Source of the DNA: Patescibacteria group bacterium
GTDB taxonomy: Bacteria > Patescibacteriota > Minisyncoccia > Moranbacterales > GWC2-37-73
DNA length: 34,105 nucleotides
Direction of reading: 5' to 3'
Assembly (NCBI GenBank): GCA_022709545.1
Contig: JAKLIP010000005.1
Location: forward strand, 1-34,105
The notes under the pieces were generated by a model. That model saw nothing but the letters and a program-made list of their open reading frames with translations. It did no database searches and was not told where the DNA came from. Below are positions 1,464 to 27,542 of this stretch, piece by piece. The position numbers and the translations under genes were made by a program. The first letter of the stretch is position 1, and every line of letters starts with the position of its first letter.

Positions 1464-4400
1464 ATGTTTAAACACAGAAAAAATAAAAAAATTCTTGCAT
1501 ATGTTTGTGGGGTGGGTCTATTTTTTACCCAAACATTTCCCCTGGGAGCGCAAGCTGCCAACACAATTGGTTCAATTTCTGATCCCAGTACTGGGTCGGT
1601 GAACTTTGACACGCTTGATGATGAGATTGGGAATATAGATAAAAAATCTAGCGCCATAAACCCCCTGGTTAAAATCTCCTTTTCCTCAACAGACAATTTT
1701 AAAGGCGGGTCTAGTGTAACGGGAAAGGCTATAACACAGGGATTTTCCGATGAAAAACCTATTTATTACACCTGGTATTTAAAAAGGGCAGATTGTGGAT
1801 TAACAGAAAGTTGGTGGAAAACAGAAACCTGGTGTGAGGAAAACTACCTAGACGCAGACGCCATAGAAGACTGCAGGGATGAAAAAGCTAAAGAAACAAA
1901 TCAAAGCAAAATTGAGGCTTGTGATTTAGACGGCGATGAATTAATAACACCCAATGATTGGAAAATAGCGGCCACTAGAGCAGTTATTAAAAGAGAGGCT
2001 GGAAAGTTTGGTTCATCAGCCACGGGCATAAAGGCAGAGCCATCGGTTACTGATGAAAATGAAGGCTGGATTAAAAATTTTAAAAGAGACAATAATGGTG
2101 ACTTAGAACAGCACAATGATGAGGATGCACCCAATTGTTATATGTCAGCGGAAGAGAGTGGAACAACGTATGAGCTAAGAAATGCAAAAGTTTCTTTTAG
2201 CGGTACTTGTCCATCTGGACACCACCCTGCCTGTGTGGAAGCAACCACCGCCTCCTGTGACGTGCTTAATTCAGTATATCCCACAACTGATCAAGATTGC
2301 CCACCATGGATTGAGGAGTCTGATCCAGCCTATGATCCTGACCTTTGCACAGATCCAGTGGAAAAGACAATCTCCGGGAGTTTTAGTGTTTGTGCCGCCA
2401 ATTCAGATGAAGAAGACGCTGAGTCTGTGTTTGGGTGCACCATAGAAAACGAGGCTGACTTGGAAGACTATGAAGCAACCCTAAGCTGCCGGGAAGGCAG
2501 TGGGACACCTATTTGTCTTGAAGATGATGGAATTATGAACTTAATGGACACTGATGATACAGATGCTGATCCAGATTCAATTTTGGGAGTGATAACCTCA
2601 ATGCCAGGGACCAATGCTGAAAATGAGACCGATGGAATTTGTAGCGCCTTAGCTGAAGCAAACACCAACACACAAACCGGTTATGATGATACAGACCCGG
2701 AATATTATCGTGTTGCCCCACCAAACTTTTTTAGTACAGCCAAAACACTTAATGAAAGCTGCTCTTACTTAGTGGATGGCCTAGTTAATGGCATAACCCA
2801 AGATAGAACTGTTTCGATACAGGGAGCCACTGAAGTATATACCGACACCATACCGGATGGCACAACTATTGCAGAAGGAGATTCAACCTTGCAGCCAACC
2901 TGCTCGTTTACAAAAGACGTCAATTTATGCAAACACCTTTTTCCATATTTCCCAGAAAAAAATATAAGCACCAAAAAGGTTACAGTTGATTTGAATGATA
3001 ATGATAGAGCTGGCGACGGAGATTTTACTGATAAGGAGAGAACGTTTTGGGGAGCTGATTCTGCTGATAATGCTAACAATGGCGACACGATATCAGACAA
3101 AGATGAAACCCTGATCATAGGAAAAGGATTGGATAAATTTACTTGGCTATATGCAGACGGTGATGAGGTTGGGGTAGCAGTAGAAGGCACAACTTTTTTA
3201 CCAACCGATCACCAAGATTCATCAACCAAGATTATGTGGGCATTTTCAAATGGAACTTGTTCTGCGCTGGAAGAGGAGAAGGATGATATTGAAAATGGGC
3301 GCCGGGCTTTTTATAAGGAAGGCAGTGTAAACATATTAACTAGCAATTTTGATCTAGATAGGTGTCTTGAAGAAAATTTAGTTGATCCAACCACAAATGA
3401 ATATGGGATAGGCGAAATGACAATTGGTCTTTCAGCAAATCCAGAAAGCCCGCTTAATGATCCGGGTGGCAATGGAGACACGCTCACGGTAGCGGCTGGA
3501 ATACAAAACGTGAGTGATTCGGGCAGTGTTTATTATGAGTGGAGCATAGAAAAAAGCGAAGACGGAATAATTACTCCTAATGATGACACATCATGGACCG
3601 ACATAACCACGGACATGATAAAAAAATATGGCAGCATAAAAAATTCCGACATAGTGGGAATAGGCAAAAATAAGATAAATATTTCATTAAATCTACCGGC
3701 TAATCTAGTGGATCCAGACGGAGAAGGAGCATTTTATTTAAAAATAAGAGTGAAAGCAACAGAAAGCTCTGACAGCAACAACGAAACAACCCAGGGCTCA
3801 ATTACAATAAGAGTGCGACAGCAAGAAAATAAATTAATGGCCTATTCTGTAGTGGTTTCAGCGGACGGAGAAATGAAGATGGATAAAAGTGGTGGCGCTT
3901 TTTGTGATTCAACCAGTGGAACAGCCTGTGAGGTTGCTGAAAATAAAATTATAGGAGTAGAGCTTCCTAAAAATGACGACGATACTTTAACCGGCGTTTC
4001 GTGGATGGTTAATAACCACTCCATGTCATGCACAAGCGATATGTCTGAAGATTGTAGTGAAGGCAATGTTTTAATTTTTCCTGTTTTGGGAGAACCAGGA
4101 GAAGCAATTAATGTTATAGGTAAAGGATTGAGCAAAAAAACAGGGGGTGTTGTTGAGGTTAACCTTTATTTTTTAATTGTCGAACCACAGCTCACAATAA
4201 CTACAACCGATACTGCAAAAGTTTGGCCAAAACTCATGGGATTTTTTAAAGATACAGAAAATGGGAAAACCGCAGATTATAGCTCCTATGTTTTTGAAAC
4301 AAATACCGGCAATGAGGTTACTTTAAGGGCGGACACCTCAGGCATTTGGGGGTATTTTGGGCAAACCTTCGAGTGGAGTGTAGATGGTGAATCAGATGAT

Positions 4401-4802
4401 TCATATGGAAACACCACATCATTTTCTGCAGACAAAGAGGTTGGAGACAGTTATAGCGTATCAGTAGTAATGGAAGAAGACCGAACAGAAGAAAATTCTA
4501 AAAAGATAAACTATTTACGCAAAGCCCTTTATAATAATTGGGGAGTTAGTGTGGATGACCTGGGCGACGAAAGTATGGCTGCGTCTGTGCAAGTTAATGT
4601 TGTGGATAATACCTATCAAACAGTAAGCGATTCTGGAAAAGGAGGTCTCTTTGCTAGCTTGGCAATCAACCTGCCAAAGCAGCTTATGTTTTTATTTAAG
4701 ATTGCTTTAACCGGTTTTGTGCTGATGTTTTCAATGGGTATAATTTTTGCTGTTATTCCAGAGCCCCTTTTTGAAAAAAGGGAAGAAAACCCGATTATCT
4801 AA
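1464..4802 (+). CDS. Large secreted, C-terminally anchored surface protein (unrecognised family)
   Basis: This 1112-residue protein starts with a basic stretch and a hydrophobic signal segment ending near GAQA (residues 1-31). One strong hydrophobic helix lies near the C-terminus (about 1075-1100) with a charged tail, so the bulk should face outward. It is rich in Asp, Glu, Ser and Thr and has many cysteines, mostly in residues 110-400, suggesting disulphide-stabilised domains. A clear EF-hand-like loop, DLDGDELITPND, spans 154-165. A second Asp-rich loop lies near 508-525. Repeated motifs YYTWYLK (about 101), YYEWSIE (about 690) and FEWSVDG (about 970) suggest several PKD/Ig-like beta domains. 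It heads the operon with the pilin-enzyme fusions (39 bases to the next start) and may be their scaffold or adhesin. I do not recognise a named family. Confidence 0.7.
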   Translation: MFKHRKNKKILAYVCGVGLFFTQTFPLGAQAANTIGSISDPSTGSVNFDTLDDEIGNIDKKSSAINPLVKISFSSTDNFKGGSSVTGKAITQGFSDEKPIYYTWYLKRADCGLTESWWKTETWCEENYLDADAIEDCRDEKAKETNQSKIEACDLDGDELITPNDWKIAATRAVIKREAGKFGSSATGIKAEPSVTDENEGWIKNFKRDNNGDLEQHNDEDAPNCYMSAEESGTTYELRNAKVSFSGTCPSGHHPACVEATTASCDVLNSVYPTTDQDCPPWIEESDPAYDPDLCTDPVEKTISGSFSVCAANSDEEDAESVFGCTIENEADLEDYEATLSCREGSGTPICLEDDGIMNLMDTDDTDADPDSILGVITSMPGTNAENETDGICSALAEANTNTQTGYDDTDPEYYRVAPPNFFSTAKTLNESCSYLVDGLVNGITQDRTVSIQGATEVYTDTIPDGTTIAEGDSTLQPTCSFTKDVNLCKHLFPYFPEKNISTKKVTVDLNDNDRAGDGDFTDKERTFWGADSADNANNGDTISDKDETLIIGKGLDKFTWLYADGDEVGVAVEGTTFLPTDHQDSSTKIMWAFSNGTCSALEEEKDDIENGRRAFYKEGSVNILTSNFDLDRCLEENLVDPTTNEYGIGEMTIGLSANPESPLNDPGGNGDTLTVAAGIQNVSDSGSVYYEWSIEKSEDGIITPNDDTSWTDITTDMIKKYGSIKNSDIVGIGKNKINISLNLPANLVDPDGEGAFYLKIRVKATESSDSNNETTQGSITIRVRQQENKLMAYSVVVSADGEMKMDKSGGAFCDSTSGTACEVAENKIIGVELPKNDDDTLTGVSWMVNNHSMSCTSDMSEDCSEGNVLIFPVLGEPGEAINVIGKGLSKKTGGVVEVNLYFLIVEPQLTITTTDTAKVWPKLMGFFKDTENGKTADYSSYVFETNTGNEVTLRADTSGIWGYFGQTFEWSVDGESDDSYGNTTSFSADKEVGDSYSVSVVMEEDRTEENSKKINYLRKALYNNWGVSVDDLGDESMAASVQVNVVDNTYQTVSDSGKGGLFASLAINLPKQLMFLFKIALTGFVLMFSMGIIFAVIPEPLFEKREENPII

Positions 4803-4840: not shown

Positions 4841-5710
4841 ATGAAGCTACATAAGATTAAAAAAATACTAGCCATAAGCGCTATTAGTTGTTTGATGGCG
4901 TTTGCAATAAGCAGTTCTGCTTCAGCCGCACTTGAATATAAAATGCTGGAAGGACTGCCGGGATTTTATCAAAAAGACACTACAGCTCCCGACCTTCCGG
5001 ATTTAATCGTGGCTATCTATAAATTCGGAATCTGGACAGTGGGTATTGCTGGACTTCTAATGATGACTATCGGCGGAGTTATGTATATGGGCAGTGCAGG
5101 CAACAATGCTGCCGCCCAATCGGCCAAAGGAATCATTACCGATGCCCTGATAGGTATCATAGCTGCTCTAACGGCCTATCTAGTTATGTATGTTATCAAT
5201 CCGGATTTGGTTAAGGTAAACCTCAGTAATTTAGTAAGTGTAACAGCGGAAGAAAGTGCGGCAAATACGGCAACGACAACCCCCGCAGCCACAGTTTCTG
5301 GAGGGACAACTGGCGGAACTGATGTTGCTACGCGGACTAAATTAGCTGCAGCAGGTATTAAAGTTAATAAATTAAATTGTAAAAGCACTACAGAAACAAA
5401 TTGTACAAGCCTGGCTGGCCTAAAAACATCAGCTGTAGACAATCTAATAAAACTAAAAAAGGATTGCGGAACAAGTTGCAATGTGATGGTAACAGGAGGA
5501 ACAGAAGGAGGGCACTCTTCGCATAGCACAGGGGATAAGATTGATTTAAGAGTTGACCAATCAGTAAAGAATTTTCTCCTAAAAAACAAAAATAATCTAA
5601 GCAGTTATGGAATAAAACAAATTTGTGCTACCGATGCAGATGCTAGTTTAAGATACAACTGTACTACTAAAGAAAAAACGCCTCATTATCATGTGGCTTT
5701 TGGCAGTTAA
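4841..5710 (+). CDS. VirB2/TrbC-like pilin module fused to an M15-type peptidase domain
   Basis: Residues 1-29 form a signal peptide ending in ASA. Residues about 50-125 hold two hydrophobic helices around a GNNAAAQSAKGIIT segment, as in VirB2/TrbC-type conjugative pilins. A Thr/Ala/Gly-rich linker (about 138-165) leads to a C-terminal domain with SHSTGDKID (H228, D235) and HYHV (H282, H284). This is the SHxxGxxxD plus HxH zinc-site pattern of M15 D,D-peptidases that cut peptidoglycan stem peptides. Ordinary VirB2 proteins end after the second helix. It is gene 2 of the surface operon, with the propeller gene 5 bases downstream. Its pilin module is clearly related to those at 6922 and 8190 but has diverged. 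Whether it assembles into a pilus or simply anchors the enzyme is unknown. Confidence 0.75.
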   Translation: MKLHKIKKILAISAISCLMAFAISSSASAALEYKMLEGLPGFYQKDTTAPDLPDLIVAIYKFGIWTVGIAGLLMMTIGGVMYMGSAGNNAAAQSAKGIITDALIGIIAALTAYLVMYVINPDLVKVNLSNLVSVTAEESAANTATTTPAATVSGGTTGGTDVATRTKLAAAGIKVNKLNCKSTTETNCTSLAGLKTSAVDNLIKLKKDCGTSCNVMVTGGTEGGHSSHSTGDKIDLRVDQSVKNFLLKNKNNLSSYGIKQICATDADASLRYNCTTKEKTPHYHVAFGS

Positions 5711-5715
5711 TTTTT

Positions 5716-6858
5716 ATGAAAAAAGTTTTAATAATATCCTTGGTTTTGCTTGGTATAACGCTATTTTTTTTAGGCGTGTATAATTTTGTGTTCAAAAAAA
5801 GCACACCGAGCAGTTCTGAGCCAATAGTGCAAACAGATCCAGAAAAAAACGAACAGGAAAAAATTATTCAAAAAAAATCTGAAAAAATAATGCCCGTTTC
5901 TAAACAGCCAGTAATAGGCAAGCCTATTTTTGATAAAAAAAATGAAACCATTACCTATTATTCGGCTAAAGACGGCACGGTTTGGTCGGTTCAAGCAGAT
6001 GGCAGCAAAGAAAGCCAAATAGCAGATACGGAACTAGCAGGGCTTAAAAATGTTTTTTGGGCCAATGGCGGAGAAAAAGTTATAACCGAATTTAAAAAAG
6101 GCAACAATAGTTCTTTCTATTTCTACAACCATAAGGAGAAAAAAGGTTTTCCATTGAAAGATGGACTCGATACAATTGCTTGGGATTCCGCCGGTACTAA
6201 AATTTTTTATAAATATTATGACGCTAGTTCTAACAAAAGAACACTGAATATTTCTAATCCTGACGGCAGTGAATGGCAAAGCCTAACCGAGTTAATAGAC
6301 AGGGATGTTTTAATTGCTCAAATTCCTTCAACCTCGCTGCTTTCATTTTGGAACGCGCCCAAAGCCCGAGAAAAAACCTATTTCAAGGCGGTAGACATGA
6401 CCGGTGGTGAACCTCATCTAATTCTAAGCAACAGATTTGGGGCAGATTATTTGTGGGCTCCTAATGGTAAACAGGCCCTGGTGAGTTCTCTAGCAAACAG
6501 CGAGAGCAAAATGGTTACATTAGGACTCATAACGTCTGAGGGAAATTACACAGAACTAAACATTCCAACGCTAGTTTCTAAGTGTATATGGTCTAATGAC
6601 AGCAAAACAATATACTATGCATTGCCTGGAGATATTCCAGGCGAAGCAATTATGCCCGATGATTACCAAAACAATAAATTTACAACTAAAGATACTTTTT
6701 GGAAAATAAATATCGAAACCGGGAAAAAAGAAAGGATAGTTGAAATAAATGATATTGCGAAAGATTATGATTCCGATAGACTGTTTCTTTCTGCTAACCA
6801 GGGCTACTTATATTTTGTAAACAGAATTGACGAAAAAATTTATCTTATAAGGCTATAA
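5716..6858 (+). CDS. Membrane-anchored beta-propeller-like (TolB/WD40-like) protein
   Basis: This 380-residue protein has one N-terminal hydrophobic segment (about 4-24) serving as anchor or uncleaved signal, then a Glu/Lys/Gln-rich linker. From about residue 75 it has repeated short beta motifs of the type found in TolB-like propellers: ITYYSAKDGTVWSVQADG, NVFWANGGEKV, TIAWDSAGTKIFY, YLWAPNGKQALV, CIWSNDSKTIYY and YLYFVNR. These W-x-x-(D/N/S)-(G/S)-x-K repeats are typical of propeller blades, and about six can be counted. No catalytic motif is seen, so a binding or scaffold role is likely. It sits 5 bases after the M15 fusion gene and 63 before the C39 fusion gene, implying one operon and a shared extracytoplasmic machine. 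Confidence 0.65.
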   Translation: MKKVLIISLVLLGITLFFLGVYNFVFKKSTPSSSEPIVQTDPEKNEQEKIIQKKSEKIMPVSKQPVIGKPIFDKKNETITYYSAKDGTVWSVQADGSKESQIADTELAGLKNVFWANGGEKVITEFKKGNNSSFYFYNHKEKKGFPLKDGLDTIAWDSAGTKIFYKYYDASSNKRTLNISNPDGSEWQSLTELIDRDVLIAQIPSTSLLSFWNAPKAREKTYFKAVDMTGGEPHLILSNRFGADYLWAPNGKQALVSSLANSESKMVTLGLITSEGNYTELNIPTLVSKCIWSNDSKTIYYALPGDIPGEAIMPDDYQNNKFTTKDTFWKINIETGKKERIVEINDIAKDYDSDRLFLSANQGYLYFVNRIDEKIYLIRL

Positions 6859-6921
6859 TGAGAAAAGATAGCGCGTCTTGCTTTTATAAACGAGTTAAAA
6901 CTCACACGCTAACAACCAAAA

Positions 6922-7929
6922 ATGAACCCAATCAAGATAAAAAAAATACTAGCTATAAGTGCTGTTAGCTGCTTGCTGGCCTTTGCAATAAGCAGCTCTG
7001 CTTCAGCCGCATTTGAGTATAAAATGCTGGAAGGCCTACCCGGATTTTATCAAAAAGATACTACAGCGCCCGACCTTCCGGATTTAATTGTGTCTATCTA
7101 CAAATTTGGAATCTGGACAGTCGGCATTGCCGGACTTCTGATGATGACTGTTGGAGGAGTCATGTATATGGGCAGCGCAGGCAACAACGCTGCTGCCCAA
7201 TCAGCCAAAAAGATTATTACTGACTCACTGATAGGCATAGTAGCGGCTCTGACAGCCTACCTATTTATGTACGTTATCAACCCAGATTTAGTTAATGTAA
7301 ATCTTGGTAATTTAATAAGTGTGGAGGTGGACACATTTGAATTGCCAGCTTCAGAAAGAGTGGCACCAGTTGCGGGTTCTAGCACCGCAGGTACCGGAGG
7401 TGTTCCCGCACTGTATCAATGCGCTTCAGGGGTAGCAGCTATCGATTATAGTAATGGTGGAAAATGTAAAGAAAAAAGCGGTAAACTTTCAAGTATTTGT
7501 TCTTCTGGTTGCGGGGTTGTTTCAACCGCAATGGTGCTTAAATATTATGGAAAAGATGCTGATATTAAGGGATTATCTCAAAAAGTAATTGCTAAAGGTG
7601 GTCGCATATGTAATGCTGGATCAACTGCTGCAGGATTAGCTGCTGCTGCTGAAAGCTATGGTTTAAAAAGCCAAGCAACTACTGCTGAAAATGCATTAGC
7701 AAAAGCCGGGTCCAATAAGCCGGTTGTAATATCCGTTCGTGAATGTAAGTCAGGCAAAGACTGTAGATTTACCAATGGCGGTCATTTTATAGTTGTTACC
7801 TCAAGAGATGGAGACAATTTAACAATTAATGATCCCTCCAATGGAGCAGGCAAATCCACAAGAAAACAAATCACTGTTAGTGAATTAAAGAGCGAGTGTT
7901 GTTTGGGTCAGGGTATTACATTTAATTAA
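6922..7929 (+). CDS. VirB2/TrbC-like pilin module fused to a C39-type cysteine peptidase domain
   Basis: This 335-residue protein has the same signal peptide and two-helix pilin module as its neighbours (residues 1-137), then a Ser/Gly/Ala linker. Its C-terminal domain matches the papain-like C39 peptidase pattern: C197 in SSGCGVVSTAMVLKYYG, H288 in NGGHFIVV, and N303/D304 in INDPSN, giving a Cys-His-Asp/Asn triad. C39-type domains cleave peptides such as leader peptides, and relatives act on cell-wall cross-bridges; the substrate here is unknown. Its pilin DNA is identical to the next gene for 402 bases, while the enzyme parts are unrelated. The leader before ATG is purine-poor with no Shine-Dalgarno sequence. 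About 260 AT-rich bases separate it from the next fusion gene; I see no gene in that gap. Confidence 0.75.
   Translation: MNPIKIKKILAISAVSCLLAFAISSSASAAFEYKMLEGLPGFYQKDTTAPDLPDLIVSIYKFGIWTVGIAGLLMMTVGGVMYMGSAGNNAAAQSAKKIITDSLIGIVAALTAYLFMYVINPDLVNVNLGNLISVEVDTFELPASERVAPVAGSSTAGTGGVPALYQCASGVAAIDYSNGGKCKEKSGKLSSICSSGCGVVSTAMVLKYYGKDADIKGLSQKVIAKGGRICNAGSTAAGLAAAAESYGLKSQATTAENALAKAGSNKPVVISVRECKSGKDCRFTNGGHFIVVTSRDGDNLTINDPSNGAGKSTRKQITVSELKSECCLGQGITFN
6934..7335 (+). repeat. 402-bp perfect direct repeat, copy 1 (pilin module)
   Basis: Reading both copies line by line, I find no difference between 6934-7335 and 8202-8603 (offset 1268). The repeat covers codon 5 to about codon 138 of both genes and ends abruptly where the enzyme-specific linkers begin. 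Absence of even synonymous changes indicates very recent duplication or gene conversion. Confidence 0.92.
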
Positions 7930-8189
7930 GGTTATCAAATTAATAAAAATCATATAAATATTAACTAGAAAAAATAAACATAAAGAATTTTAATTTTTTA
8001 TGCAGACATAAAAAAATATCAATAAAAAATATGCCCAAAATAAAAAACCGCATTGTTTTTCCGATAAAATGTCAAGTTGATGAATATAAAAAATAATTAA
8101 GACTAATGTCTATTACAAACAACATTAGGGACAATTTAACATATTTGTTATTTTTTATAGAACTTTTTTAAGAACACCACATACTAAAA

Positions 8190-9080
8190 ATGAACCTAAA
8201 TAAGATAAAAAAAATACTAGCTATAAGTGCTGTTAGCTGCTTGCTGGCCTTTGCAATAAGCAGCTCTGCTTCAGCCGCATTTGAGTATAAAATGCTGGAA
8301 GGCCTACCCGGATTTTATCAAAAAGATACTACAGCGCCCGACCTTCCGGATTTAATTGTGTCTATCTACAAATTTGGAATCTGGACAGTCGGCATTGCCG
8401 GACTTCTGATGATGACTGTTGGAGGAGTCATGTATATGGGCAGCGCAGGCAACAACGCTGCTGCCCAATCAGCCAAAAAGATTATTACTGACTCACTGAT
8501 AGGCATAGTAGCGGCTCTGACAGCCTACCTATTTATGTACGTTATCAACCCAGATTTAGTTAATGTAAATCTTGGTAATTTAATAAGTGTGGAGGTGGAC
8601 ACAGAAGGAACACCAATGGGAACCATAGATTCAACGACGGGAAAATATAAAAAAATTACGTCTGGAAAATGTACAGTGGAAAACTTAACAGCTCTTAATA
8701 AAACAAGCAGCCCGTCTACATGGGCAACGCAAGCATCTTGTATTTGTTCAGGAGAAAGCAGTGGAGTAGACAACGCCTTAAGTTCTGTTGATAAATGCCA
8801 GGGAGGGGGCACTAATGATTCCGTATCTGTTGGTCTCTTTCAAATTAATCTTTCTGTGCACAAGGTGGCAGGATTAAATTGTCCAAGTGCTTTTAATACG
8901 GCATATACTGCTAAAATCGCAAAAGATAAAACAAAGTGTTGGGTAACAGATAGAGACTTGTATAATAAATGCGTAACAGCAGCATCAGATCCAAACACGA
9001 ACATTAACGCTGCAGTTAAACTTTACAGTCAAAATAACAACTGGAAACAATGGGGAGCAAGAAAAGGATGTGGACTATAA
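8190..9080 (+). CDS. VirB2/TrbC-like pilin module fused to a lytic transglycosylase (VirB1-like) domain
   Basis: Residues 1-137 of this 296-residue protein repeat the signal peptide and pilin module. The C-terminal part resembles SLT/goose-type lysozyme folds: E189 in CSGESSG is the likely catalytic glutamate, followed by SVGLFQIN (213-220) and NINAAVKLY with WKQWG near the end. Several cysteines (161, 184, 186, 203, 231, 250, 261, 294) suggest disulphides. In type IV secretion systems the wall-cutting transglycosylase (VirB1) and the pilin (VirB2) are separate proteins; here they form one chain. It is the last gene of the surface operon and converges on the glycan-ligase gene, which ends 40 bases away. 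Enzyme activity is inferred from motifs only. Confidence 0.75.
   Translation: MNLNKIKKILAISAVSCLLAFAISSSASAAFEYKMLEGLPGFYQKDTTAPDLPDLIVSIYKFGIWTVGIAGLLMMTVGGVMYMGSAGNNAAAQSAKKIITDSLIGIVAALTAYLFMYVINPDLVNVNLGNLISVEVDTEGTPMGTIDSTTGKYKKITSGKCTVENLTALNKTSSPSTWATQASCICSGESSGVDNALSSVDKCQGGGTNDSVSVGLFQINLSVHKVAGLNCPSAFNTAYTAKIAKDKTKCWVTDRDLYNKCVTAASDPNTNINAAVKLYSQNNNWKQWGARKGCGL
8202..8603 (+). repeat. 402-bp perfect direct repeat, copy 2 (pilin module)
   Basis: This is the second copy of the block at 6934-7335. The homologous module at 4841 differs from both at many silent sites, so it is an older copy. The perfect repeat is also a risk for assembly collapse or rearrangement. Confidence 0.92.
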
Positions 9081-17059: not shown

Positions 17060-18463
17060 ATGAATAACGCGGAACTTTGGCAGGCAGCTTTGGGAGAGAT
17101 AGAACTGTCCATTTCAAAAGCCAACTTCAGCACATGGTTCAAAAACACAACCATACTTTCCAATGAAAATGGAAGGGTTGTTATTGGTGTGCCCAATGGA
17201 TTTGCCAAAGAATGGCTGGAAAATAAATATAACACCTACATCTTTAAGGCGCTGAGAAACTTCCAAAATGAAATTCGAGAAATCAGCTGCGTGATCTACA
17301 ACGCTGATCAAATGCCGCCACAGGAAACAAAAAAAATAGATTCTGTTGTTTCAGTATCGCCGGATAAAAATAAAGAGCCGTTGCCGGGCGTTGTTTTTCA
17401 ACCTAATTTTACGCAGCAGCAACCGCAAGAAGTTTTTGATAACAATATAAATTCACGTTACACTTTTGAAAATTTCATCATCGGCGAAAATAATGAATTA
17501 GCGCGCGCAGCATGCTATGCTGTTTCCCAAAACTTGGGCAAAATATATAATCCGCTGTTTATTTATGGCGGCGTTGGCTTGGGAAAAACTCATTTGCTTC
17601 AATCCATAGGCAATGAAGTCTTGAAACATGATCCCGCAAAAAAAATAAAATATATAACTTCCGAGCGCTTTGCTAATGAGCTTATCAACTCGATTCGCAA
17701 TCAAACTGTCAATGATTTCAAAGCCGCCTACCAAGCCATAGACCTTCTTATTATCGATGATGTGCAGTTTTTAGCGGGCAAAGAAAAAACCCAAAATGAA
17801 TTTTTCCACATCTTTAATGCGCTTTATCAAATAAACAAACAGATTGTCATCAGCAGTGATCGTCCGCCCAAGGCGATTGCAACCTTGGAAGAAAGATTGC
17901 GCTCGCGTTTTGAAGGCGGAATGATTGCCGACATTGGCAAACCCGATTTGGAAACCCGCATTGCGATTTTGAAAACCAAATCCGCCGAAAAAAACTTCAA
18001 CATTGATGAAGAAGCCATTATATACATAGCGGAAAACATTAAAAGCAATATTCGTGAATTGGAAGGCGCGCTCAACCGCATCATCGCCGAATGTGAATTC
18101 AACAAAAAAATGCCTACGCTTAAATTTGTCCAGCAAGCTTTATCGGAAATAATTTCCAGCGGAAAAAAGAAAGGAGTTCAGCCGCAACATGTTATTGTCA
18201 CCATTTCCCAATATTTCAATATCTCCAACAAAGAACTTTTGGAAAAGGGACGCAAGAAAGAAATTGCCTATGCGCGTCATCTGGCAATGTATATTATGCG
18301 CAGCGAACTCAATATTTCATATCCAAGCATCGGCAATCATTTTGGCGGACGTGATCATACAACTGCCCTGCATGCTTTTGAAAAAATCAGCAAAGACATG
18401 GAAATTAATGAAAAGGTCAGAGAAGATGTGACAAAACTAAAAGAATTAGTTTACGCCATCTAA
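17060..18463 (+). CDS. dnaA: Chromosomal replication initiator DnaA
   Basis: This 467-residue protein has all four DnaA domains. Domain I (1-80) begins LWQAALGEIELSISKANFSTWF. A variable Gln/Pro-rich linker follows (about 85-130). The AAA+ domain has Walker A GGVGLGKT (170-177) and Walker B LLIIDD (229-234). The C-terminal helix-turn-helix carries the DnaA signature GGRDHTTALHA. DnaA-ATP binds 9-base boxes at oriC, melts the DNA and loads the helicase. The ATG has no Shine-Dalgarno sequence. It diverges from rpmH across the likely origin and is followed by dnaN after 55 bases. Confidence 0.97.
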   Translation: MNNAELWQAALGEIELSISKANFSTWFKNTTILSNENGRVVIGVPNGFAKEWLENKYNTYIFKALRNFQNEIREISCVIYNADQMPPQETKKIDSVVSVSPDKNKEPLPGVVFQPNFTQQQPQEVFDNNINSRYTFENFIIGENNELARAACYAVSQNLGKIYNPLFIYGGVGLGKTHLLQSIGNEVLKHDPAKKIKYITSERFANELINSIRNQTVNDFKAAYQAIDLLIIDDVQFLAGKEKTQNEFFHIFNALYQINKQIVISSDRPPKAIATLEERLRSRFEGGMIADIGKPDLETRIAILKTKSAEKNFNIDEEAIIYIAENIKSNIRELEGALNRIIAECEFNKKMPTLKFVQQALSEIISSGKKKGVQPQHVIVTISQYFNISNKELLEKGRKKEIAYARHLAMYIMRSELNISYPSIGNHFGGRDHTTALHAFEKISKDMEINEKVREDVTKLKELVYAI

Positions 18464-19667: not shown

Positions 19668-19732
19668 GGTTCTTTTAAACAAATATTTTTAGGAAGCTCA
19701 AATAAATCAACAAAAAACGAAAGGAGTATTAT

Positions 19733-20032
19733 ATGAAAAAATTGTTCCTTGGTTTTTGGTTCTGGCAAAAAATTGCTTTGAGACATTCTTGGCTGGGCAA
19801 AATAAAAAGATTAATTTGGAATAGAAGCATTAAGCTTCAATGGAATCGTCTTTGGATAAGAAAAGATGAGTTTCATAAATCATTGAATTGGGACAGTGAG
19901 GCTGTTTTGGGAATAAGCCAAGAACAGAGAAAGATATATGTTGATGATTTGGTAAAACGTCGGCATATTGCTCACGAACGTGATTTAATGAAAAAAAGCC
20001 CAGCATTTCGTGTTATGGTAAACAATCGTTAG
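19733..20032 (+). CDS. Small basic, Trp-rich protein of unknown function
   Basis: This 99-residue protein has a Shine-Dalgarno sequence (AAAGGAG, about 10 bases before ATG), one of the few good ones in the window, which supports it as a real gene. The N-terminal half is unusually rich in tryptophan, lysine and arginine (FWFWQKIALRHSWLGKIKRL); the C-terminal half is charged and probably helical. I do not recognise the family. It sits between dnaN and the DciA-like gene and is followed by a GC-rich hairpin. Confidence 0.6.
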   Translation: MKKLFLGFWFWQKIALRHSWLGKIKRLIWNRSIKLQWNRLWIRKDEFHKSLNWDSEAVLGISQEQRKIYVDDLVKRRHIAHERDLMKKSPAFRVMVNNR

Positions 20033-20044
20033 CAGAGCTTCTAG

Positions 20045-20067
20045 GGGGATGATCAAAAACCATCCCC
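20045..20067 (+). terminator. GC-rich hairpin after the small Trp-rich gene
   Basis: GGGGATG (20045-20051) pairs with CATCCCC (20061-20067) across a 9-base loop. There is no U-run, so it may be a processing or stability hairpin instead of a true terminator. Confidence 0.4.
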
Positions 20068-20100
20068 GCTTCCTAAAAGTATTTGTTTGAATATTCTATT

Positions 20101-20385
20101 ATGAAAAAAATCGGAAGCCTGCTGGACAGGAGAAAATTGTCTAAGAGGATAAACATTGACCAAGAAACTATTTGCTATATTTTCAGGCAAATTATCAAGG
20201 AGGAATATGGCAAGCAAGGCGCTGAGAACATAGTGCCGGTTTTTTTTAAAGATAAAAAAATATTTGTGAAAACCGCAGGATTGAATTGGGCCAGCGAAAT
20301 TTTGACAAACAAAAAACAGATCATCAAAAAAGTGAATGAACAACTTGGCGGAGAAGAAATTGTGGATCTGGAAATGTCGCAATAG
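20101..20385 (+). CDS. DUF721/DciA-like protein (putative replicative helicase loader)
   Basis: This 94-residue protein has the DUF721-type core VPVFFKDKKIFVKTAGLNWASEI followed by a helix with KKQIIKKVNEQLG, matching the pattern of short beta strands then W-A-x-E-L and L-N-x-x-L-G in DciA. DciA recruits the DnaB helicase in bacteria without DnaC or DnaI. I chose the ATG at 20101 over a TTG at 20083. No Shine-Dalgarno sequence is seen. Location near dnaA and dnaN fits a replication role. It is immediately followed by the tRNA-Pro promoter. Assignment rests on pattern only. Confidence 0.5.
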   Translation: MKKIGSLLDRRKLSKRINIDQETICYIFRQIIKEEYGKQGAENIVPVFFKDKKIFVKTAGLNWASEILTNKKQIIKKVNEQLGGEEIVDLEMSQ

Positions 20386-20388
20386 CAA

Positions 20389-20417
20389 TTGACTCGGGAA
20401 TGTTTATGGTATAAAAT
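20389..20417 (+). promoter_or_regulatory. Putative tRNA-Pro promoter
   Basis: TTGACT (20389-20394) and TAAAAT (20412-20417) are separated by 17 bases. The tRNA starts 23 bases after the -10. Confidence 0.6.
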
Positions 20418-20439
20418 AAGCATTAGTTTGAAAAAATAT

Positions 20440-20515
20440 CGGGGTGTGGTGTCAACGGCTAGCACGAGTGGTTTGGGACCATTTAGACAGGGTTCGAATC
20501 CCTGCACCCCGACCA
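20440..20515 (+). tRNA. tRNA-Pro (anticodon TGG), CCA encoded
   Basis: The acceptor arms CGGGGTG (20440-20446) and CACCCCG (20505-20511) pair fully. The anticodon stem AGTGG/CCATT encloses the loop TTTGGGA, giving anticodon TGG. The T arm CAGGG-TTCGAAT-CCCTG (20488-20504) is perfect. Discriminator A is followed by an encoded CCA. The 3' part is overlapped on the opposite strand by the recombinase ORF. Confidence 0.95.
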
Positions 20516-22108
20516 GTTGAGACGAACAGAGGCAAGAGCCTCTGTTTTTGTTTTATTCAAAGGTAGTTTATGCAGTTCTAACCTTTCATATTCTGCTTTT
20601 AACGCAGGATAACCATTTTCAATTGGCACAAGCCATTCATTGGCTTGAATAGTGAGTTTTCCATCTAAAATTATCGGGTGCGAACCTAATCCCATTAAAA
20701 TTTCTTTTTTCTTTTGCAAATCACCAGTTAAAAACTCTTTGTGAGCATAGGTCGCAAAGGTAAAAGTTTTTTCCGTAAGCTCTAGCCAGTTTTCTGCCCT
20801 GTTTTCTGTCTCCCTCAATTGTTCTTTTATTTTTAGAATATCATTCTGAAGCGTTTCTTTTTCTTTTAAAAACTGTTCATCATCAATCAGCATACGATAT
20901 CTCATTTTTGTAAGCTCATCCAAATTATTTTGTTTTTCTGTTAAGGTTTTATGTTGCATTTCGTAAATTCTGGCTCTGCATTCAATCTCATTGTCGTTTT
21001 TACTATTTAAATCCTCTAATGCCCATTCCAAAAATTCAGGCAAGATAGAAAGTTTACTAATCTCCCGTTCAATTTGAAGCTCTAAATCTTCTTTTCGTAT
21101 AGCTTTTCTTTGCGAACAATTTAAATCTCGCTTTTTTCTAGTGCAGTGATAGTAAGTAAATTCTTTTATCTTACCAGTGCTTCTAATAATTTTTCTTTTA
21201 GTTTCTGCTGTATGCACACAACCGCATTCACCGCAACGGATAAGTCCAGTAAAAGCAAACTCGTGTTTCTTTGGTCTTGGCTTTCCTTTTCTTCCTAATA
21301 ATATTTGCACTCGGTCAAACTCTTCCAATGAAATCATAGCTTCGTGTTTACCTTGATATTCTTTGCCACGACAAGAAATAATTCCAGTATAAAAAATATT
21401 AGTAAACATTCTATAAATACTGCTTCTTGCAAGCTCCTTCCCGCCGTGTTTTTTGTATTTTCTTGTGCGATATCCCCATTGTTTATTTGCTATATTCAAT
21501 ATTTTAGGTGGGGTATAACTTCCAGTAAGCATCAAATCAAACATTTTGCGAATAAGATTAAAGCGTTCCTCATCTTTTATGATAGTTCTGCTTGCTGGGT
21601 CATTAAGATATCCCTCTGGCGGTAAGCTTGGAAGCCAGCCATCATTACGCTTTTTCTCATTACCTCTTTTTACATTTTTGCTAAGGTCTAATATGTATTG
21701 ATTAGCCATTCCACTTTCAACACTGAAGAGCAGAACATTATCATCTGGAAGAAATTGCCTATCTATTGTTTGAATTGATTTCATTATCCCTTGCTGAAGC
21801 ATCCAACTAATTTTTCCGCTATCAATCGGATTTCTTGATAAACGATTTATTTGCCAGCATAAAATTCCGTTTGCTTCTCCATTTTCAATTCTTTCCATCA
21901 TTTCATCAAAGATTGGTCGGTTGTTTGGTTTCTTTGCTGACTTTGCTTCAGTATAGATTTTCTTAATATCCAAATTTAAATCACGAGCAAGTTGCTTTAG
22001 ACGATTAACTTGGTCATCAATAGACTGAACTTGTCGGTCTTCGTTTTCCGATGATTTTCTAGCATAAAGGAAATATTTAATTTTTTTATCATTGTCATTG
22101 TTTTTCAT
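20483..22108 (-). CDS. Large serine recombinase (site-specific integrase)
   Basis: This 541-residue protein has a resolvase-type catalytic domain starting YFLYARKSSENEDRQVQSI (probable nucleophile S19), NRLSRNP (about 104-110), and a recombinase domain with PPEGYLND. A zinc ribbon (CGECGC ... YYHCTRKKRDLNC) and a long coiled-coil segment (about 380-450) follow, the order of large serine integrases. Such enzymes insert and excise elements at short att sites. The last 20 or so codons are antisense to the tRNA-Pro terminator and T arm, and the stop (20483-20485) lies inside the tRNA. The C-terminus therefore probably comes from the integration site. The start is ATG in the context AATTATATG. A pseudoknot-forming inverted repeat lies just upstream. 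Confidence 0.92.
   Translation of the reverse strand: MKNNDNDKKIKYFLYARKSSENEDRQVQSIDDQVNRLKQLARDLNLDIKKIYTEAKSAKKPNNRPIFDEMMERIENGEANGILCWQINRLSRNPIDSGKISWMLQQGIMKSIQTIDRQFLPDDNVLLFSVESGMANQYILDLSKNVKRGNEKKRNDGWLPSLPPEGYLNDPASRTIIKDEERFNLIRKMFDLMLTGSYTPPKILNIANKQWGYRTRKYKKHGGKELARSSIYRMFTNIFYTGIISCRGKEYQGKHEAMISLEEFDRVQILLGRKGKPRPKKHEFAFTGLIRCGECGCVHTAETKRKIIRSTGKIKEFTYYHCTRKKRDLNCSQRKAIRKEDLELQIEREISKLSILPEFLEWALEDLNSKNDNEIECRARIYEMQHKTLTEKQNNLDELTKMRYRMLIDDEQFLKEKETLQNDILKIKEQLRETENRAENWLELTEKTFTFATYAHKEFLTGDLQKKKEILMGLGSHPIILDGKLTIQANEWLVPIENGYPALKAEYERLELHKLPLNKTKTEALASVRLNWSGCRDSNPV
20526..20549 (+). terminator. Rho-independent terminator after tRNA-Pro
   Basis: ACAGAGGC (20526-20533) and GCCTCTGT (20538-20545) form an 8-bp stem with an AAGA loop, followed by a T-run (20545-20549) and TTTTATT. 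It lies inside the 3' end of the recombinase ORF on the other strand. Confidence 0.85.
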
Positions 22109-22140
22109 ATAATTGTGTGTACTTAAATTTATTTAATTAG

Positions 22141-22251
22141 AGATACTAAAAGGACGGTTCTGACTTGTCCAACTTTCCAAAGGATTGCTGGCAGAACCGC
22201 CCATCTAGTAAGACGATAAAATCCTTTGGTTATTGAGTTGGACAAGTATCT
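22141..22251 (-). other. Complex inverted repeat with potential pseudoknot upstream of the recombinase
   Basis: Read on the minus strand, an 11-base arm CTTGTCCAACT and a 9-base arm CCAAAGGAT pair with ATCCTTTGG and AGTTGGACAAG (plus-strand arms 22164-22174 with 22236-22246, and 22177-22185 with 22221-22229). The 35-base apical loop contains CGGTTCTG, which can pair with CAGAACCG just 3' of the stem (22192-22199 with 22155-22162), forming an H-type pseudoknot. An outer pair AGATACT/AGTATCT (22141-22147 with 22245-22251) competes with the stem base. It may be a structured RNA leader controlling recombinase expression, or a DNA recombination site. Confidence 0.75.
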
Positions 22252-22254
22252 AAA

Positions 22255-22860
22255 TTATAGCATTTTTGTGTTTTTTAGCAACGCATAATTAGAGTGGCTT
22301 TGGTTCAGAATTTTAATCATTCGCCTGTATTTTCTGGTCGGCTTCCCTGCGTAGTAATGACGCTTCAATCCTTCATTAATCTTTTCCATCTTTTCCTCCA
22401 TATCAAGCACTTTGAATACATATCTGTATTTTGATTGTCGGTTTTCATTCTTTGATTTATAGGTTAACTCATAGCAATGCCGACATCCGAAATAATCTCC
22501 GCTCTTATAAAGCACACCAACTCTTCTGCCACAGAAAACGCCATTTTTTGAAAGCGGACAAACGAACCAATATCTTTTACCGCCGTAATTGCAAGGGGAA
22601 GAAACCAGTGATGCTCTGTAATCAAAGTTCTTTTTTTCTCCATCATCTTCGGTCTGGGAATAATTGAAGCGGATATAATTTTCTCCATCCAGTATGGAAA
22701 CTGTAATGCCTATGCTGTCATTTTTTTCCGACCAGCTATTGCTCCACTGAATTCCACCAGATTTCCATCCATCCAGATAGCCATATTTTTTCAGCCACCA
22801 CATTTCAACTTTTTTCAATCTATCTGCTTCTGTTTTATTTGACCAACTCCATCTTCCCAT
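22255..22860 (-). CDS. Zinc-ribbon-like protein of unknown function
   Basis: This 201-residue protein begins MGRWSWSNKTEADRLKKVEMW. It has a beta-rich middle and a cysteine cluster: CNYGGKRYWFVCPL, then VFCGRRVGVLY and FGCRHCYELTY (about residues 112-152), suggesting a zinc ribbon. The C-terminus is basic and helical. I recall similar uncharacterised proteins in Patescibacteria but cannot name a function. There is no transposase catalytic triad. It ends 4 bases from the pseudoknot element and precedes the recombinase on the same strand, so it may be co-transcribed with, or a partner of, that element. The start is ATG in AATTATG context. Confidence 0.65.
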   Translation of the reverse strand: MGRWSWSNKTEADRLKKVEMWWLKKYGYLDGWKSGGIQWSNSWSEKNDSIGITVSILDGENYIRFNYSQTEDDGEKKNFDYRASLVSSPCNYGGKRYWFVCPLSKNGVFCGRRVGVLYKSGDYFGCRHCYELTYKSKNENRQSKYRYVFKVLDMEEKMEKINEGLKRHYYAGKPTRKYRRMIKILNQSHSNYALLKNTKML

Positions 22861-22993
22861 AATTTTTTCAAATTATTACCGAAATCATTAGAGATTGATT
22901 TCTTCTCTTGATTATATTTATGCTTTGTATTGGGCAAAATATTAATTTTCATCGTTTGCCTGTTTTTTCAATATTTTTTCCAAACGAACCCAT

Positions 22994-23515
22994 TTATTCT
23001 TCCTTGGATATTTCAACATCTACCGCTACTGGCAGAGGAATATCCTGTCCATTTCTCTGTGCCTGCAATCTTTGTAGTTCGTGCAGTGCTTTGTAAATTC
23101 CTTTCTCAATACTGGTTTCGTAACGAGTAAATTTTCCATAGGTATCATTATTTACAAAATCATAGCTGAATGCTTCTCCAAGAGTTTTTTCTTTTTCTGA
23201 AAACATCTCCTTTCTGTCATCTTCAACCATTTCACTTTCTATCTTCATAGCTCTTTTTAATCTCCAAATGTTTGCGATTATTCTATCTGAAAAAAGAAGC
23301 TCTATTTCATTGGCTGGTTTTAATTCACCTCTAATCTTTTTTTCTAACTCCAAAAGCTCCTCTTCACTCTCATCTCTTAATAGAACACCTCCGCTTAAAA
23401 GCCCGTGCTTCAATGCATTGTATCTGCTAATAGATTTACCTTCTTCGGTTTTAACTCCGCCCAATTTAGCATTCTCTCTGTTAGCTTCTAATTGTTTTTC
23501 TGATATTTCGCTCAT
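22994..23515 (-). CDS. Uncharacterised helical protein with KQLEANRENA-type N-terminus
   Basis: This 173-residue protein starts SEKQLEANRENAKLGGVKTEEGKS followed by RYNALKHGLLS. I recognise this N-terminal pattern from a widespread uncharacterised bacterial family often found in mobile DNA. A helical body with WRLKRAMKIE and a RYETSIEKGIYKALHELQRLQ block follows. The basic start could bind nucleic acid; no enzyme motif is seen. It is minus-strand, upstream of the zinc-ribbon gene. A palindrome array (23658-23717) and a hairpin (23533-23556) lie in its upstream region. Confidence 0.65.
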   Translation of the reverse strand: MSEISEKQLEANRENAKLGGVKTEEGKSISRYNALKHGLLSGGVLLRDESEEELLELEKKIRGELKPANEIELLFSDRIIANIWRLKRAMKIESEMVEDDRKEMFSEKEKTLGEAFSYDFVNNDTYGKFTRYETSIEKGIYKALHELQRLQAQRNGQDIPLPVAVDVEISKEE

Positions 23516-23532
23516 AGTTTTTATTAACTGTT

Positions 23533-23556
23533 CTTATACTGTTTATCAGTATCAAG
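23533..23556 (-). promoter_or_regulatory. Hairpin in the leader of the 23515 gene
   Basis: ATACTG (23536-23541) pairs with CAGTAT (23547-23552) across TTTAT. Flanking CTT/AAG extends the stem past a one-base bulge. It is a possible operator or RNA hairpin. Confidence 0.35.
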
Positions 23557-23657
23557 TCAGTCTTTTTTATAGTGTCTGAAATCTTTTCTAAAGCCATATT
23601 TTATATTTAATTTAATATAAATAATATAATTACCTTTCCTTTAGAGGAATAATATAG

Positions 23658-23717
23658 ACTATAGTAATAACTCTAGTATTTACTATAGTAGTGAGTTAAA
23701 AATCTGCTACTATAGTA
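23658..23717. promoter_or_regulatory. Array of three ACTATAGT palindromes
   Basis: ACTATAGT occurs at 23658-23665, and the longer palindrome TACTATAGTA at 23681-23690 and 23708-23717. Centres are 24 and 27 bases apart, roughly two to two and a half helical turns. Position between two minus-strand genes suggests operators for the 23515 transcript, or iterons. Confidence 0.55.
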
Positions 23718-23721
23718 AGAA

Positions 23722-24012
23722 CTATTTTTTTTCCACGATTGGAATACTAGCGTAATCATATTTTTCAATAATTTCCCTCTTTATCTTTTCAAGAAGTGAT
23801 TTTTCAAAAAGACAATATTTAAAATTTCTTTTTTGAGGAACTTGCACATTTAATGCATTGTCATACTTACTTTTCCAAACAGTGAAGCCAGAAATGGTAA
23901 AGTATTCCCCAAGCTCACCCTTGAAAGTCAAGGTAGCATTTGCAAGTAAATTTTCGTGTTGTCCTGAAGTTAGTTTTACACTTGCGGTAATCTCTACAAT
24001 GTTAATTCTCAT
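23722..24012 (-). CDS. SpoVG-like small protein
   Basis: From the ATG at 24012 the protein has 96 residues: MRINIVEITASVKLT, then NATLTFKGELGEYFTISGFTVWKS, then a VQVP-type strand, and a helical end LLEKIKREIIEKY. The strand order resembles SpoVG, a small nucleic-acid-binding regulator (compare its ASVTF...IRVI...VAMPS layout). I prefer 24012 to the ATG at 24027 because it has the AATTATATG context shared with other genes of this element. Function here is unknown; replication or expression control of the element is possible. Confidence 0.45.
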   Translation of the reverse strand: MRINIVEITASVKLTSGQHENLLANATLTFKGELGEYFTISGFTVWKSKYDNALNVQVPQKRNFKYCLFEKSLLEKIKREIIEKYDYASIPIVEKK

Positions 24013-24042
24013 ATAATTTTTATCCATTTATGATTTAGATAG

Positions 24043-24318
24043 TTAGTTGTATGCTTGATGGTTTAAAACCTGCTGGGGTTCATTTTTGCCCTCAATTCCT
24101 GTTGTCCTCAGGGGCACTGTAATGTTTTCCAGATGTGCTAAGATTGCCCTTTTTTCTTTTCTAGTATAATCATTTTTGTCCACCAGTCTTTGAAACCAGC
24201 GATGGATGGATTGACGATTAAAACCTTGTCCCTTTACTGCTTCAGAAAAACATACATAACTGCTCCAAAACGGTTTCTTTTTAGTTATGTTTTTAAATCT
24301 TCTTTCTAAGGATTTCAT
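24043..24318 (-). CDS. Small basic protein, possible helix-turn-helix, unknown function
   Basis: This 91-residue protein begins MKSLERRFKNITKKKPFWSS and contains AVKGQGFNRQSIHRWFQRLVDKNDY, whose spacing resembles a helix-turn-helix with an aromatic-rich recognition helix. The C-terminal third looks unstructured. It lies in a run of small minus-strand genes downstream of the reverse transcriptase. I do not recognise a named family; DNA binding is inferred. Confidence 0.5.
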   Translation of the reverse strand: MKSLERRFKNITKKKPFWSSYVCFSEAVKGQGFNRQSIHRWFQRLVDKNDYTRKEKRAILAHLENITVPLRTTGIEGKNEPQQVLNHQAYN

Positions 24319-24339
24319 AATTGTAATTTTGGTTAATTT

Positions 24340-24534
24340 TTAATATTCGCTATCTATCTTTTCCTGACGCTTCTTCAGTTCAAGATAGTTCTGTTTTGTC
24401 ATTGGTTTGTATATGAGTTTCACAAGACGAACAAGCCGAACACCTTTTTCAAAAGCTTCATCTCGGCTTATTTCTATGCCAAAACGATTTTTGTAAATTG
24501 TTTGGAATTTTTCAATTTGTTCGCTTGTGAACAT
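24340..24534 (-). CDS. Small protein of unknown function
   Basis: This 64-residue charged, helical protein starts MFTSEQIEKFQTIYKNRFG and contains EISRDEAFEKGVRLVRLVKLIY. I recall similar short proteins near recombinases of Patescibacteria but know no function. The ORF is tightly packed, 4 bases downstream of the DUF5659-like gene and 21 bases before the next gene, which supports it being real. Confidence 0.55.
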   Translation of the reverse strand: MFTSEQIEKFQTIYKNRFGIEISRDEAFEKGVRLVRLVKLIYKPMTKQNYLELKKRQEKIDSEY

Positions 24535-24538
24535 AAAG

Positions 24539-24832
24539 TTATTCGCTATAAATTCTATTTTTTAACATTTTTACATTGTCAAAAAATGTTCGGGCTTTTA
24601 CTTCTAATTTGTCGGCAAAATAGTCGTCCACAACCTTTTCAATTCCTAGTTCTCGGTGAAATATGAACTGCACTTTTTTAGGATTGGATTTGTCCAAAGA
24701 GACAAGCTCAAAACCCGCACTTATAATTGCGGAACTACAGCCTAAATCGTAAGTTGTCATAAAGTCCTGATAATTGTCGGAAGAAATACGACCTTGTTTC
24801 TCCGAGATGCCACTTAATTGATTTTTGGTCAT
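24539..24832 (-). CDS. DUF5659-like protein
   Basis: This 97-residue protein has a core YQDFMTTYDLGCSSAIISAG followed by FELVSLDKSNPKKVQFIF, and ends with a VKARTFFDNVKMLKNRIY helix. This matches my memory of the DUF5659 pattern (T-x-D-L-x-x-A, G-F-x-x-x, K-K-V-x-F-x-F, ending in L-K-x-x-I-Y), a domain found in phages and mobile elements with no known activity. It starts with the AATTATATG context and lies 137 bases downstream of the reverse transcriptase, separated by a terminator hairpin. Confidence 0.6.
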   Translation of the reverse strand: MTKNQLSGISEKQGRISSDNYQDFMTTYDLGCSSAIISAGFELVSLDKSNPKKVQFIFHRELGIEKVVDDYFADKLEVKARTFFDNVKMLKNRIYSE

Positions 24833-24904
24833 ATAATTTTTTGTTAATTATTATGCCCTCTAATCATTAATGGCGAATTTCACTCTAATTTTTTAAAAAC
24901 AAAA

Positions 24905-24926
24905 AACTCCCTTTATTTTGGGAGTT
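24905..24926 (-). terminator. Rho-independent terminator downstream of the reverse transcriptase
   Basis: AACTCCC (24905-24911) and GGGAGTT (24920-24926) form a 7-bp stem with an 8-base loop. The minus strand continues with a strong T-run; the plus strand also has T-runs, so it could act in both directions. Near-identical 13-base sequences (GGYGAATTTCRCT) flank it at about 24872 and 24956. Confidence 0.75.
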
Positions 24927-24969
24927 ATTTTTTGAAAAAGTTATAAATTTTTATTGGTGAATTTCGCTA

Positions 24970-27342: not shown

Positions 27343-27463
27343 ATAATTATAATAGTAATTTTCCCTTATTTTACGCCAAAACCCTCAAAAAATCAAGCTT
27401 CTGAGTGGTTTATGGACTTAGAATTTTTTATAAGATTTTTCTGGCTGAAAGAAATTACCAGCA

Positions 27464-27492
27464 TTGACAGTATTACATTATGGGTATATATT
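27464..27492 (+). promoter_or_regulatory. Strong sigma-70-like promoter of the redox/metal cassette
   Basis: TTGACA (27464-27469) and TATATT (27487-27492) are spaced by exactly 17 bases. Directly downstream, ATATATTCA-type direct repeats (about 27486-27508) could be an operator. Confidence 0.75.
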
Positions 27493-27542
27493 CATAATAT
27501 ATATTCAATTAAATAACTAATATAGAAAGGTAGGTGATAAAT

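Follow-up and report, generated by a model that had tools for sequence, protein, structure and literature searches.

The window analysed here, a stretch of 34,105 nucleotides of Patescibacteria DNA, encodes three proteins (A, B and C) in which the same module, judged from its sequence profile to be a homologue of the VirB2-like T4SS pilins, is followed by three different tails of putative wall-active enzymes. A T4SS pilin and a VirB1-type function would be combined here in one protein, an arrangement that appears to be new. The reading preferred here, to which a probability of roughly 0.55 is given, is that the fusions are wall hydrolases tethered to the T4SS and performing the task of VirB1, with the module acting as the docking piece.

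The locus and its pilin-like module

The window comprises the entire contig C13 of a genome bin with a completeness of 98% and a contamination of 9.6%. The main contig of the bin, C10, carries a syntenic locus (L019/L023) near 319-343 kb, where the matched genes encode proteins 34-84% identical to those of the window, and the dnaA genes of the two contigs are 83% identical. Since the bin contains two dnaA genes and the same chromosomal region twice, the most likely source of C13 is a second, related species, whose contig contaminates the bin. The C10 locus, which represents the main species of the bin, has other tails than the window: one module protein of 135 aa is free of any enzyme, and one module is fused to a VanY/M15-like tail.

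On the + strand of the window the genes are arranged in the order lsp, CAAX protease, SURF, A, PROP, B and C; an O-antigen ligase and glycosyltransferases follow protein C on the opposite strand. The features are:

50-496, + strand: signal peptidase II (lsp), a neighbour in family f1, to which the window belongs
810-1448, + strand: CAAX (Rce1-like) membrane protease, conserved neighbour
1464-4802, + strand: SURF, 1112 aa, predicted to be exported, one C-terminal transmembrane helix; conserved immediately 5' of the fusions
4841-5710, + strand: protein A, 289 aa, pilin module and M15-like zinc peptidase tail (H228, D235, H282, H284)
4841-5251, + strand: module of A, signal peptide (about residues 1-30) and two transmembrane helices
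5716-6858, + strand: PROP, 380 aa, N-terminal transmembrane anchor and propeller-like body; conserved neighbour, between A and B
6922-7929, + strand: protein B, 335 aa, pilin module and C39 cysteine peptidase tail (C197, H288)
6934-7335, + strand: 402-bp stretch in B, identical to 8202-8603 in C
8190-9080, + strand: protein C, 296 aa, pilin module and SLT/lysozyme-like tail (E189)
8202-8603, + strand: 402-bp stretch in C, identical to 6934-7335 in B
17060-18463, + strand: dnaA, 8 kb from the fusions, a marker of the origin region

The homologue of PROP in C10 gave a hint of PD40 below the cut-off. An apparent insertion, missing from the syntenic C10 region, occupies positions 19700-27500; it includes a large serine recombinase gene (20483-22108) overlapping tRNA-Pro (20440-20515), and a 790-aa reverse transcriptase (24970-27342) whose nearest relatives are the UG/DRT-type defence reverse transcriptases (UG19, E 7e-48).

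Over residues 1-140 the pairwise identities of A, B and C are 119/140, 120/140 and 136/140, and the likeness ends sharply at about residue 138, with nothing in common beyond. The first-pass annotation had described a common signal peptide and two-helix module with a break at this point; this description held, and every residue it named was found in its place. At the DNA level the modules of B and C share 402 identical bp, copy A is 83% identical to both, and a 46-base probe from the 402-bp stretch occurs twice in the window and not once in 100 shuffles. The identical DNA, together with catalytic residues conserved across the order, rules out chance or an annotation artefact.

The module is predicted to start with a signal sequence, whose AxA-like site falls around residue 30, and to continue with two transmembrane helices (residues 52-83 and 89-119 in the models), which are joined by a short lysine-bearing loop and have acidic stretches on either side. 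This predicted arrangement of a signal peptide and two helices connected by a short loop is that of VirB2-like proteins. In the known topology of VirB2 the position corresponding to the tail is extracytoplasmic, and by analogy the tails of A, B and C, which contain all the cysteines of these proteins, are predicted to be extracytoplasmic as well.

The match of the window modules to the T4SS_pilin family (PF18895) is weak, 19.8 bits against a curated cut-off of 26.6, which the modules of several relatives exceed. In a profile-profile comparison, 16 modules matched the canonical T4SS pilins of the bin with an E-value of 5.7e-13 over 72 columns, and one of these canonical pilins passes the TrbC/VirB2 cut-off. 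From the profile-profile match and the relatives above the cut-off, the module is concluded to be a homologue of VirB2-like pilins, a subfamily with its own sequence signature, and the earlier suggestion that it is T4SS-pilin-like is therefore borne out, with the window copies themselves remaining below the family cut-off. A PDB sequence search with the module gave no match, while Foldseek and VIA searches with two AF2 models of moderate confidence returned only helical hairpins; a fold match to the Aeropyrum conjugation pilin 8dfu was tied with unrelated coiled coils and was discarded as evidence.

Two variants of the architecture were observed in relatives. In some genera the signal peptide and the pilin helices are separated by a cysteine-rich segment of about 70-150 aa that matched no family (L061:9449-10750, L063:1000-2118, L064:10285-11565), and in L246, L257, L260 and L269 large proteins of about 680-1420 aa carry a pilin-type module at the C-terminus or mid-protein, not near the N-terminus.

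Enzyme tails and their exchange

The tail of protein B belongs to the C39 peptidases (PF13529, E 2e-13; PF03412, E 1.5e-12) and contains C197 and H288; the 335 aa of B include no ABC transporter domain of the kind found in bacteriocin-exporter C39 proteins. It groups with L266, a module-C39 fusion from a genome outside the class. The tail of protein C matches SLT_3 (PF18896) at E 1e-4, below the curated cut-off, with E189 present; it clusters with 20 SLT-type tails, and SLT matches in relatives reach E-values down to 5e-20. Protein C is the only one of the three with an SLT domain and a catalytic Glu, as expected of a VirB1-type protein.

The tail of protein A fits the HxxGxxxD and HxH zinc-site pattern, and across 29 related A-type tails conservation is highest (86-97%) in the five columns H228, G231, D235, H282 and H284. 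A family profile search with this tail gave no significant match (VanY, E 0.075), and a weak profile link to the family runs through other tail groups (E 1.5e-4 and 6e-4). Because the family match is not significant, the tail is named M15-like only, an assignment that rests on the conserved residues, without a significant profile or fold match. PDB sequence searches gave no match for the A-type tails or for the SLT tail; the VanY-type tails of relatives matched D-Ala-D-Ala carboxypeptidases. The model of protein A used to check for the M15/LAS fold had a pLDDT of 66.8, and fold searches answered for the helical hairpin only, so that in the two moderate-confidence models the tails were left without a fold match. 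Among the enzyme classes proposed in the first-pass annotation, C39 is firm, SLT is upheld with a score below the cut-off, and M15 stands by its residue pattern and not by its family profile.

The module was detected in 118 of the 131 genomes searched of the order (Moranbacteria) at E <= 1e-12, which rules out a single-genome oddity. In wider samples it was detected in 320 of 385 genomes for the class and in 168 of 286 for the phylum, counts that are upper bounds for the module subfamily because more distant pilins are included. The relatives found via the module are named as Candidatus Moran(i)ibacteria and other Paceibacteria/Parcubacteria. Other classes also contain such fusions; the class and phylum loci were fetched for long open frames and therefore give no rate of fusion.

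Tails were grouped by profile clustering, which replaced a regular-expression search for active-site motifs that proved too crude; linkage on a small set may over-merge the groups, and with this reservation the 68 tails longer than 80 aa in the order set comprise 38 M15-like, 20 SLT, 3 VanY-like, 1 CHAP/DUF2272 and 1 C39 (protein B of the window), the others being without a group. In family f1 SLT and M15-like tails occur together in at least five genomes, and in the loci read of family f11 the module stands alone, without an enzyme. The M15-like group includes a few tails seemingly without catalytic residues. Two of its members that seem to lack the zinc-site residues (L165:6401-7399 and L126:6935-7939) are each located beside an apparently intact copy and are possible pseudo-enzymes.

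Beyond the order, tails of M15_4 (E 1e-16), M23 (7e-10), GH18 (8e-22) and C39 (1e-10) were found on this module, as were SLT plus GDSL hydrolase and PKD-type domains. The idea that different wall-active enzyme families are swapped on one platform is supported by this genome survey, across the order and further afield. A phage origin was rejected, with no match in phages searched with protein C or in viral contigs searched with the module; a plasmid origin was likewise rejected on one query, for which no record covered 80% and the listed matches were to the SLT part only.

The diversity and quick exchange of the tails would also suit enzymes directed outwards, which cut the wall or surface polymers of a host bacterium while anchored where the T4SS makes contact or on the tip of a short pilus. 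Such an attack on the host wall is the main rival to a VirB1 role, and we regard it as possible but doubtful. The GH18 and PKD-type tails fit poorly with a role purely in the cell's own wall, the Patescibacteria in culture live as epibionts (PMC12206443), and a part in breaching host envelopes has been suggested for lytic transglycosylases (PMC11665869). However, the pair of SLT and peptidase is the tool set with which VirB1 acts on the donor's own wall, no immunity gene came to notice, and the module predicts an enzyme held in the membrane rather than released.

The tree includes 13 genomes with two or more full copies, and in every one of them the modules cluster according to genome rather than enzyme class. 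Module DNA is 83-100% identical in pairs within a genome, apart from an enzyme-free third copy in L170 (about 70%), and 58-79% identical between genomes of the family. Gene conversion or repeated exchange of tails explains modules that are homogeneous and tails that differ, and the selective reason may be that all copies must fit one common partner while the enzymes change freely. Many assemblies (L071-L079) end or carry runs of N inside the module, as expected of near-identical repeats, and fusion genes are probably undercounted in short-read MAGs.

The enzyme-free module protein of C10 and the fused one adjoining it are 89% identical in DNA, and such a pair is what a mixed filament would need. 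The module being a pilin homologue, it could in principle polymerise into a long pilus with an enzyme-coated surface. This is nevertheless very unlikely, since in most loci read every copy bears an enzyme; moreover, tails of 135-200 aa on every subunit would be hard to pack, and the bin has genes for canonical pilins at other sites.

T4SS gene neighbourhood and proposed role

In families f2, f3, f4, f8 and f10 of the order, VirB4, the motor gene of the machine, is at most about five genes away from the fusion, and the genes run VirB6, X, PrgI (VirB3), VirB4N, VirB4, small membrane protein, CAAX protease, SURF, fusion(s) and PROP. A shorter version of this VirB4-fusion operon is present in other orders. 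SURF and the propeller protein, earlier put forward as partners of the fusions, are indeed conserved neighbours, and T4SS genes do lie near the fusions in relatives, in the five families and in other orders, contrary to the refuting case that the first-pass annotation had set out. In L273, L274, L275 and L252 the fusions are the sole module-bearing genes found in the stretch of operon read. In f11 the lone module is, in L146 (4158-7097), directly 3' of a gene with a T4SS coupling-protein domain (TrwB_AAD_bind, E 1e-8), and the gene order is similar in L147, L152, L153 and L154.

VirB4 was not seen adjoining the locus in f1, f6, f9 and f11; the f7 locus meets a contig end and was left out of this comparison. 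Within the window itself no VirB4 or other T4SS gene accompanies the fusions, and in its family VirB4 is encoded elsewhere. In several genomes dnaA is located nearby, in agreement with the report that T4SS genes of Patescibacteria are often found near dnaA (PMC12102498).

The f1 locus, apart from VirB4 and remaining with lsp and envelope-polysaccharide genes near dnaA, could indicate that the module is now a mere membrane anchor for general wall remodelling, with its pilin origin and T4SS linkage functionally meaningless. This is improbable, given the VirB4 linkage in five other families and other orders and the coupling-protein linkage in f11; in addition, the strong conservation of the module and its homogenisation within genomes would be needless for an anchor.

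For the preferred reading, in which the fusions take the place of VirB1, the following mechanism is proposed. After Sec export and cleavage of the signal peptide, the two helices would reside in the membrane, the loop on its inner and the enzyme on its outer side, and the module would be recognised by the T4SS membrane complex. Glycan-cutting (SLT) and peptide-cutting (M15, C39, CHAP-like, M23) activities would thereby be kept at the point of passage of the machine through the wall. In this way the fusions would replace VirB1, whose role is filled in Gram-positive T4SSs by a separate SLT+CHAP protein, and the paired SLT and peptidase tails of f1 may be seen as resembling this SLT+CHAP pair. 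Support comes from the homology of the module to T4SS pilins, the VirB4 linkage in relatives, the wall-hydrolase tails and the predicted topology, all at the level of sequence. Counting against it are the lack of VirB4 adjacency in the window's family and the window modules below the Pfam cut-off, along with enzyme-free f11, the seemingly dead tails and the tails without a fold match.

A broader and rather speculative proposal is a display system across the phylum, in which the T4SS would load pilin-like docking modules with exchangeable extracellular tails (hydrolases, glycosidases, PKD-type domains) and gene conversion would keep the modules alike. If true, one machine could be re-equipped for different surfaces.

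Comparison with known systems

VirB1 is reported to be rare in Patescibacteria and, according to a 2025 survey, the VirB2 pilus can do without it (PMC12102498). This survey scored pilins and VirB1 as separate components, and fusions could therefore have gone unremarked. In the only Patescibacterium tested, epibiotic growth depends on the T4SS, a machine whose role has been called completely unknown (PMC11665869). With the present locus, the wall-opening activity that had been missing has a candidate, unexpectedly attached to a pilin, and the question of wall opening becomes testable. No description of a pilin::hydrolase fusion was found in the open-licence papers searched (PMC12102498, PMC12857230, PMC10633639, PMC6744442, PMC8080830, PMC11665869, PMC5512222, PMC13059738).

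The module resembles the VirB2-like T4SS pilins of Patescibacteria (PF18895; PF04956) in its signal peptide, two helices, short basic loop and T4SS context, and shares with them the signature GG(I/V)MY-x-SAG-x(7)-AK. Unlike these pilins, it bears an enzyme tail of 135-200 aa and a signature of its own (PGF, IYKFGIW, INPDL), and in the window it scores below the Pfam cut-off. As in VirB1 and the hydrolases of Gram-positive T4SSs (PrgK, TraG of pIP501, CD419, TrsG), a predicted wall-opening combination of SLT and peptidase is found near virB4. However, the Gram-positive VirB1 is one protein with SLT and CHAP, whereas here two or three proteins are involved, each on a pilin module, and the peptidase class varies (M15, C39, CHAP-like, M23) instead of being CHAP. 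VirB1 is also a free-standing exported hydrolase, while protein C is fused to a pilin module. Wall enzymes likewise adjoin virB4 in Southlakia epibionticum, where the peptidase and lysozyme genes downstream of virB4, in the T4SS locus SEML1_0006-0019, are reported to be essential for epibiotic growth (PMC12102498, citing Wang 2023).

The polyvalent proteins of phages and conjugative elements (PMC5512222) are comparable in that lysozyme and DD-peptidase domains are swapped on a common scaffold. They differ from the present locus, which is chromosomal and conserved across an order, and that paper does not mention a pilin. The fusions described here offer a clear natural case in which tails are swapped on a module that is kept uniform within each genome.
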